Positions 46,876-48,605 of a DNA stretch of 64,000 nucleotides are shown piece after piece. Below the pieces are notes generated by a model, which made no database searches, had not been told where the DNA came from, and was given only the letters and a program-made list of their open reading frames with translations. How positions within the stretch are numbered: the first letter of the stretch is position 1; every line of letters begins with the position of its first letter. Source of the stretch: Sphaerochaeta associata (GTDB lineage Bacteria > Spirochaetota > Spirochaetia > Sphaerochaetales > Sphaerochaetaceae); contig NZ_CP094929.1 in NCBI RefSeq assembly GCF_022869165.1, positions 248,001-312,000 of the forward strand, given 5' to 3'. The position numbers and the translations under genes were made by a program.

Positions 46876-48034
46876 GAACAATTCCAGGCTCCCCTTTGCC
46901 CTGATCCTGTGCGGGGGATTCTTCTTCTTTGCCAACAACCATATGCTCACCATTGCGATTCCCCTGTATCTGGATTCGCTTGGCGCAAGCATGACCCTCA
47001 TCGGCTACAGCAGTGCAGCCATGGGGGCGCTTGCCTTTGCCTTTCGGTTTGTCTGCCCGCCCTTGTTCAGGAAGGTCGGCTTTACCAGGATCCTCTTTGC
47101 TTCCCACACCTTTCTCTGCCTTATCACAGCCCTCCTGCTCATTGCTGACCATCCTGTGCAGGTGTTCCTGATACGGACCGTATATGGCATTCCTCTTGCC
47201 CTGTTTCCAATCTACTACCTGCTACTTGTACGTAAGGTTTCCAAGAGCAGCTCCCAGCTTGTCTCCTATACCAGCATTGCCGGCTATGCAATGCCGCTCT
47301 CCTTGGCTGTTTCACCCTTCATTGCCGAGTTCCTTGTCACCCGCTACTCCTTCTCTGCCGCCTATGGCGCTGCCTTTGCAGTAAGCGTTCTCAGCTTGGT
47401 CTGCATGCTTGCAGGCTCGGCCCTGGTTCATAGCAACCGTGAGCTCGAAGCACTGCCTACGCAAGAAAGAACCAAGGCCGGCCTGCCGGTCAGGTACCCC
47501 ATCCTCTGCTATGTCTACCTCGGCATTGTCGATATCATCGTCCTTGGTTTTCTGCCGTTGTATGCGGTGACAGTGGGTCACTCGTTCTCGTGGTACTTTC
47601 TGCTCTTCGCTTCTGCGATGGTTCTCAGTCAGAGCCTGCTGCGTTCAAGAAAGGTGCTTGAACACAGCAAGGCATACCTGCGTATCGGCTATGGTGCGTT
47701 GGTTCTCTGTTTGCTGGTCATCACCCTCCCCAAGATCGGCTTGGTGCTTTCCGCTGTGTGTTTCGGCCTTGGTTTCAGTCTCGTAGAGACGGTGACCAAT
47801 GCCGTCGTGATCGGTTCAATGACCAGCGAAAAGGAGACTTCCTTGATCAACTACCAGCAGATTTCCATCAGCATCGGCAGAACCCTTGCACCCTTCCTCT
47901 TCGGCCTTGCCATCGACTCCTTTGGGTACAACCTCTCCTTCCTCGTGGCAGGCTTGTTGGGGTTTGTCATGGTTGCCTTGGTTGGAAGAGACAAGCAAGC
48001 ACCTAACACCCAATATATGAAAACGCCCGTTTAA
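46862..48034 (+). CDS. Major facilitator superfamily transporter
   Basis: 390 residues from ATG 46862, overlapping the BtpA-like gene by 14 bp. About 12 hydrophobic helices can be traced (for example FALILCGGFFFFANNHMLTI; YLGIVDIIVLGFLPLYAVTV). RFVCPPLFRKVG after helix 2 fits the MFS loop. It has no clear specificity motif. Translational overlap with the BtpA-like gene suggests it imports or exports that enzyme's substrate or product. Its last codons overlap the convergent HTH gene. Confidence 0.85.
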   Translation: MPEGKNNSRLPFALILCGGFFFFANNHMLTIAIPLYLDSLGASMTLIGYSSAAMGALAFAFRFVCPPLFRKVGFTRILFASHTFLCLITALLLIADHPVQVFLIRTVYGIPLALFPIYYLLLVRKVSKSSSQLVSYTSIAGYAMPLSLAVSPFIAEFLVTRYSFSAAYGAAFAVSVLSLVCMLAGSALVHSNRELEALPTQERTKAGLPVRYPILCYVYLGIVDIIVLGFLPLYAVTVGHSFSWYFLLFASAMVLSQSLLRSRKVLEHSKAYLRIGYGALVLCLLVITLPKIGLVLSAVCFGLGFSLVETVTNAVVIGSMTSEKETSLINYQQISISIGRTLAPFLFGLAIDSFGYNLSFLVAGLLGFVMVALVGRDKQAPNTQYMKTPV

Positions 48035-48605
48035 CAAACTCAGTCAAGCTGATCTCATACGCATCACAGTATGAGTACAGCGTCGTTACCGTAGGATAGT
48101 TCTCATAGCGCACACCTTCGCGCATGCAGAGGGTGTGCACATTGAAGGGCGTAAGCTTCTCCAGCGTTCGCAAAGAGAACCCGCACTCAATCCGATAGGA
48201 GCGCAACGCCATGGAGATATGCCTTGGTTGAAGATCGATGATCTGGTTCAGATGCTCTGCTAAAGAGCCGTCCTGATTCCTAATTCTTGACTCTTGAGGG
48301 TTGAGGGTTGAGGGTTGAGGGTTGAGGGTTGAGGGTTGAGGGTTGAGGGTTGAGGGTTGAGGGTTGAGGGTTGAGGGTTGAGGGTTATAGCCGCGCGAAC
48401 CAACCTCTGCCAAGGCCAGATAGGAGAAAACGTTGAACCTGAGAGCATGGCAGAGTCGTAGGATGGTGTCCAGCTTTGGTGTCCAATCGCTATTGGTTGT
48501 AATGGCCAGCAGCCACCTGGGATTCGCGTTGGTTCGCGCGGCTAATTCTTCCAGGCTTACGTTCCTGGTTTCCATGATGGTTACGAGTGCTTGTTGAAAA
48601 TGCAT
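48003..48605 (-). CDS. Double-HTH protein with a linker encoded by heptanucleotide repeats
   Basis: 200 residues. The N-terminal XRE-like domain has VSLEELAARTNANPRWLLAI and IKLDTILRLCHAL-type sequence (here PKLDTILRLCHAL). The C-terminal domain (RSYRIECGFSLRTLEKLTPF, then VRYENYPTVTTLYSYCDAYE) looks like a second XRE helix-turn-helix. They are joined by NPQPSTL units encoded by 13 copies of a 7-bp repeat (48294-48384). Since 7 is not a multiple of 3, gain or loss of one unit would cut off the second domain. In this copy the frame is open. The end overlaps the convergent MFS gene. Confidence 0.75.
   Translation of the reverse strand: MHFQQALVTIMETRNVSLEELAARTNANPRWLLAITTNSDWTPKLDTILRLCHALRFNVFSYLALAEVGSRGYNPQPSTLNPQPSTLNPQPSTLNPQPSTLNPQESRIRNQDGSLAEHLNQIIDLQPRHISMALRSYRIECGFSLRTLEKLTPFNVHTLCMREGVRYENYPTVTTLYSYCDAYEISLTEFVKRAFSYIGC
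48294..48384. repeat. Thirteen tandem copies of TTGAGGG within a coding region
   Basis: Perfect 7-bp units run from 48294 to 48384 (91 bp) with a partial unit TT after. On the coding strand the unit is CCCTCAA. Three units give the seven residues NPQPSTL. Such arrays change length by slipped-strand mispairing. Confidence 0.9.

Follow-up and report, generated by a model that had tools for sequence, protein, structure and literature searches.

The gene at positions 48003 to 48605 of the window is very probably a contingency (phase-variable) locus, in which slippage of a repeat between two helix-turn-helix (HTH) domains would switch a regulator most likely controlling the adjacent exopolysaccharide (EPS) operon. 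The window is the whole stretch of 64 kb analyzed here, bases 248001 to 312000 of a single-contig 3.55-Mb genome (G000); the comparison set comprised 26 same-genus genomes, one per species. An earlier note had proposed a phase-variable regulator at this position, and comparative genomics strongly supports phase variability of the gene: all 11 orthologues carry a frame-shifting repeat, four of the nine arrays that can be judged are in frame, sister species differ by one unit between ON and OFF, and the second domain is under selection even in OFF genomes.

A heptanucleotide array between two HTH domains

The array consists of 13.3 copies of TTGAGGG on the plus strand (93 bp, 100% matches) and sits between two XRE-type HTH domains of the 200-aa product, which confirms the perfect 7-bp repeat and the NPQPSTL linker between XRE-like domains described earlier (Table 1). 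It is the sole perfect tandem array in the window (units of 2 to 9 bp, at least three copies, at least 20 bp), a second TTGAGGG array was not found in the 3.55-Mb genome, and chance is not a credible source for it. The heptamer was also considered as a mobile repeat dispersed through the genome, which was ruled out by its restriction to one locus per genome. Past the array (positions 48270 to 48293, and the equivalent stretch in G004 and G006) there are degenerate heptads (GAGTCAA GAATTAG GAATCAG; GATTCAA GATTAAG) that look like leftovers of older arrays, as if units had been swapped over time.

Translation of G000 alleles in silico gave 200 aa with 13 units and 103, 112, 110, and 119 aa with 11, 12, 14, and 15 units, respectively, all four without domain 2. 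The addition or removal of one or two units brings a stop 5 to 12 residues beyond the array, and only three-unit steps preserve domain 2, exactly the behavior anticipated in the earlier note. The gene therefore has a non-triplet simple repeat within its reading frame (a 7-bp unit repeated 13.3 times), a feature of slippage contingency genes.

Table 1 Features of the double-HTH locus and its surroundings (window coordinates unless a contig is named)
Feature	Position	Strand	Evidence
Double-HTH regulator gene, ON with 13 units	48003..48605	-	Open ORF, 200 aa; orthologues and paralogues in genus
HTH domain 2, about aa 134-190	48036..48206	-	Weak here, above Pfam cutoff in relatives; aligned invariant residues; purifying selection among close orthologues
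Heptanucleotide array (proposed switch)	48294..48386	-	Perfect CCCTCAA x 13.3 on coding strand, (NPQPSTL)n linker
HTH domain 1, aa 10-56, HTH_26	48438..48578	-	Pfam E 9.3e-6, above cutoff
Shine-Dalgarno GGAGG, 5' of ATG	48614..48618	-	Seen in sequence
Divergent intergenic region, common to regulator and EPS operon	48606..49713		About 640 bp conserved in orthologues (alignment)
Dyad GTTCA-GAAAA-TGAAC, candidate operator of EPS promoter	49475..49489	+	One per genome in 8 genomes
MarR-family EPS-associated-like regulator, EPS operon gene 1	49714..50268	+	TIGR04176 63 bits versus cutoff of 88; Pfam HTH_24/MarR
DegT/DnrJ/EryC1 sugar aminotransferase	50235..51491	+	Pfam 5.5e-98
Bacterial sugar transferase, polysaccharide priming type	51498..52181	+	Pfam Bac_transf 2.5e-56
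MITE-like element copies	48698-48860, 49517-49625, 38389-38550, 43388-43547, 9230-9376, 7249-7413, 2702-2766
Follower gene of about 100 aa	L086:9780; L082:324; L085 near 5790-6062	- (L085)

Domain 1 scored 26.3 bits in Pfam against a cutoff of 22. Domain 2 of the G000 protein fell under the cutoff, whereas the same domain reached 29.9 and 30.9 bits in relatives (cutoff, 22); HTH_26 and HTH_3 both exceeded the cutoff there, in one paralogue and one close orthologue. A nine-sequence alignment contained 19 invariant columns, located mainly in domain 2, and a profile search with this alignment retrieved the XRE-type structures C.BclI, SinR, DdrO, and CylR2 with weak E values. The single-sequence AlphaFold model placed helices where expected, with low confidence (pLDDT of 45), and Foldseek with this low-confidence model ranked XRE proteins first, at nonsignificant values (best E of 0.39). 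By Pfam, both domains match XRE/Cro-C1 HTH families (HTH_26, HTH_3), either in G000 or in its relatives, although here there are two HTH domains in tandem, joined by a hypermutable linker, and no curated NCBIfam family covers the protein. A comparison of the protein with genome contigs produced a sole match, an unrelated Pseudomonas one falling on the repetitive linker. A phage-repressor origin was rejected, as the matches to PHROG were to generic HTH only.

Repeats across the genus

The gene was found in the polysaccharide locus of 11 of the 26 genomes, and in all 11 of these orthologues the linker carries a simple repeat at one common position, directly 3' of domain 1. Four unit types occur there, CCCTCAA, CCCAACA, CCCAGAAC, and CA (7, 7, 8, and 2 bp, respectively), none of them with a length divisible by three and none containing a stop codon in any frame of the coding strand. 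The first is represented by the 13 units of G000. The second is the most variable, with 3 units in G004 and G025, 4 in G013, 9 in G019, 11 in G003, 13 in G017, 28 in G001, and at least 5 in G006, where the contig begins within the array. The octamer CCCAGAAC is present in G015 in at least nine units, again at a contig that begins within the array, and G016 has (CA)14. Unit counts therefore vary among related genomes across all frame classes (CCCAACA from 3 to 28), as is the case for contingency genes.

Pattern searches of all 26 genomes matched each repeat unit only in the double-HTH gene. Similarly, every perfect array of 20 bp or more found in 316 kb (window, flanks, and paralogue regions) was inside the double-HTH linker. 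No arrays were found in paralogues of the family at other loci, and in members from a sister genus the linker is short and plain. In a class-wide sample of 395 genomes, the family was confined to the genus and this one sister genus. G013 carries two additional, broken paralogues of the gene. Directly 3' of the double-HTH gene in G016 and G015, and of the paralogue in G017, there is a gene of about 100 aa (M-N/R-F/Y-L-S/T-R-x-E/Q-I...), whose product is possibly another small DNA-binding protein.

Phase states and selection on domain 2

In nine cases, both flanks of the array could be read. The frame is kept in four of these genomes (G000, G013, G004, and G016), near the one-third expected if counts drift freely, and lost in five (G017, G003, G001, G019, and G025), with both wrong frames present; some of these OFF states come from draft genomes, while G001 and G019 are single contigs. 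The sister species G013 (ON) and G025 (OFF) differ by one 7-nt unit, which is the sole indel between them from the ATG through HTH2.

The OFF copies are otherwise intact. The pooled pN/pS of six close genomes was 0.125 for HTH2 and 0.167 for HTH1. For HTH2, the OFF pair G001-G019 had a dN of 0.019 and a dS of 0.371, and the OFF pair G001-G003 had a dN of 0.068 and a dS of 0.72; the pair G017-G025 is uninformative because its dS is just 0.02. HTH2 dN/dS was about 0.05 to 0.13 in most OFF-OFF comparisons and stops were absent, so that frame-disrupted copies remain under selection (dN/dS of about 0.1 in OFF genomes), a further property of contingency genes. Such strong purifying selection on an out-of-frame domain indicates that domain 2 is used at times. 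The simplest account would be that its expression is frequent enough for selection to act and, hence, that frames switch in both directions.

Divergence along the gene is mosaic in L079, L075, and other orthologues: between G013 and G001, HTH1 is almost identical (dS of 0.06) and HTH2 has a dS of 0.76. The downstream neighbors also vary between orthologue groups. Together, these two observations suggest recombination close to the array.

Proposed mechanism and alternative explanations

We propose that replication slippage in the non-triplet interdomain repeat alters the unit count. One count class out of three would then produce the two-domain regulator, with a linker rich in Pro, Asn, Gln, and Thr that gains or loses 7 aa per three units, while the other two classes would meet a stop a few to about 25 codons beyond the array and yield HTH domain 1 with a short tail. 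Three of the four unit types have a C-rich coding strand and a G-rich template strand, so that G-quadruplex formation could promote slippage. Quadruplexes have been observed in vitro for G-rich heptamers from Xanthomonas and Nostoc (PMC4692102). We infer from these genome comparisons that switching occurs within one population; the truncated form may act as a stable one-domain regulator, may compete, or may just be broken down in the cell. A more elaborate version, which we hold only tentatively, is that slippage toggles between one and two DNA-binding domains, that each form is active with its own sites, and that the 7-aa linker steps tune half-site spacing, making a three-way tunable switch that has been repeatedly rebuilt with different units at the same spot.

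The same arrays might instead reflect slippage in an unconstrained, neutral linker, with OFF copies being pseudogenes on their way to loss and no reversible switching. Decay of this kind would fit G011, where most of the gene has gone by internal deletion, the broken paralogues of G013, and the majority of out-of-frame arrays (5/9). However, dead OFF copies would decay and domain 2 does not; HTH1 and the GGAGG are likewise conserved (the latter 5' of the start in all eight orthologues with a readable start), and four non-triplet units occupy one site in this gene while its paralogues have none. We therefore consider decay unlikely.

Less probable still is that domain 2 is produced in every phase, by frameshifting in the array or by restart at an internal ATG, so that the array would tune stoichiometry or linker length rather than act as a switch. 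In G001, the TGA that ends the OFF frame shares bases with an ATG in frame with HTH2 (aaATGAag), and the residues QQM provide an ATG in six close relatives, but G000 and G004 have no such ATG before HTH2, and no Shine-Dalgarno was evident there by eye. The idea that linker length alone matters, with only in-frame three-unit steps altering the spacing between the DNA half-sites of the two domains, has a precedent in NgoAV, in which the number of spacer repeats alters DNA specificity (PMC6789123), and in-frame orthologues do range from 3 to 13 heptamer units. Nevertheless, the counts found in nature represent each of the three frame classes, and none of the four unit lengths is a multiple of three, which would serve length tuning alone poorly; we find this the least probable of the three. 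The reversible interdomain switch remains our preferred reading.

The polysaccharide locus

The regulator gene and the EPS operon, starting with its first gene, are divergently oriented, and the regulator most likely switches expression of that operon; as a working model, we infer from this arrangement that the surface polysaccharide operon is its target. The gene had been placed between a sugar transporter and an exopolysaccharide operon, and these neighbors hold: in G000, an MFS transporter flanks the gene on the side away from the EPS operon, and a MarR_EPS-like gene, a DegT aminotransferase, and a bacterial sugar transferase follow on the other. The MarR_EPS-like protein scored 63.3 bits against the cutoff of 88 for TIGR04176, making it a related protein and not an equivalog member. 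The divergent arrangement is common to G017, G001, G019, G003, G013, G025, and G004, with single genes absent in some. In G004, G006, G015, and G016, a CapD-like epimerase lies on the other side, accompanied in three of the four by a NusG-like gene.

A dyad, GTTCA-RAAAA-TGAAC, was found exactly once in each of eight genomes, always 5' of the MarR_EPS-like gene. As an operator of the double-HTH regulator, GTTCA-N5-TGAAC is unproven; it co-occurs with the MarR-like gene and is retained in G011, from which the double-HTH gene has been deleted. This persistence without the regulator is why we assigned the dyad to the EPS promoter and not to the double-HTH protein. In G011 (L133, around 2116 to 2161), the internal deletion leaves about the first 14 codons of the gene, the junction has an overlap of about 8 bp, and both the EPS genes and the dyad are still there. 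Seven copies (80 to 100%) of a dispersed element that is about 160 bp long and resembles a MITE were also detected in the G000 genome; two of them are located in the divergent intergenic region in G000 only, being absent from relatives.

Relation to known systems

The double-HTH protein can be likened by mechanism to NeuO and to HsdS, although it belongs to neither family. NeuO, the phase-variable O-acetyltransferase of Escherichia coli K1 carried by prophage CUS-3, also has a heptanucleotide repeat in its coding sequence and is ON if the number of units keeps the frame. Its counts range from 3 to 53, with 65.6% of 64 genomes OFF and 34% ON (PMC13001214), the latter resembling the 4/9 ON found here, and repeat length has been reported to tune its activity too. 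NeuO differs in being an enzyme whose repeat lies in the 5' portion of its gene; OFF therefore means no enzyme and not a one-domain form. Closer in this last respect is the type I specificity subunit NgoAV HsdS of Neisseria gonorrhoeae, a DNA-recognition protein in which slippage in a repeat tract gives truncated and full-length forms with different DNA specificities, and a separate LEAT repeat also alters specificity (PMC6789123). HsdS is a subunit of a methyltransferase and its tract is poly-G; homology with XRE-type HTH proteins is not expected.

In the general class of phase-variable regulators and phasevarions, one regulator switch can alter many downstream genes together (PMC11475388, PMC5149525). 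The cases described there are mostly DNA methyltransferases, in contrast to the double-HTH protein of one genus and its near relatives considered here. In the open-access literature, we found no description of a slippage switch in a double-HTH regulator and no papers on phase variation in Sphaerochaeta. Slippage switches described so far are mostly in enzymes, surface proteins, or methyltransferases of pathogens, and here the putative switch lies within a small transcription regulator adjoining a polysaccharide locus. Four different frame-shifting repeats at one interdomain site within one genus would be a clear example, from nature, of selection acting on switchability itself, and the locus offers a directly testable model of one-domain versus two-domain regulation.
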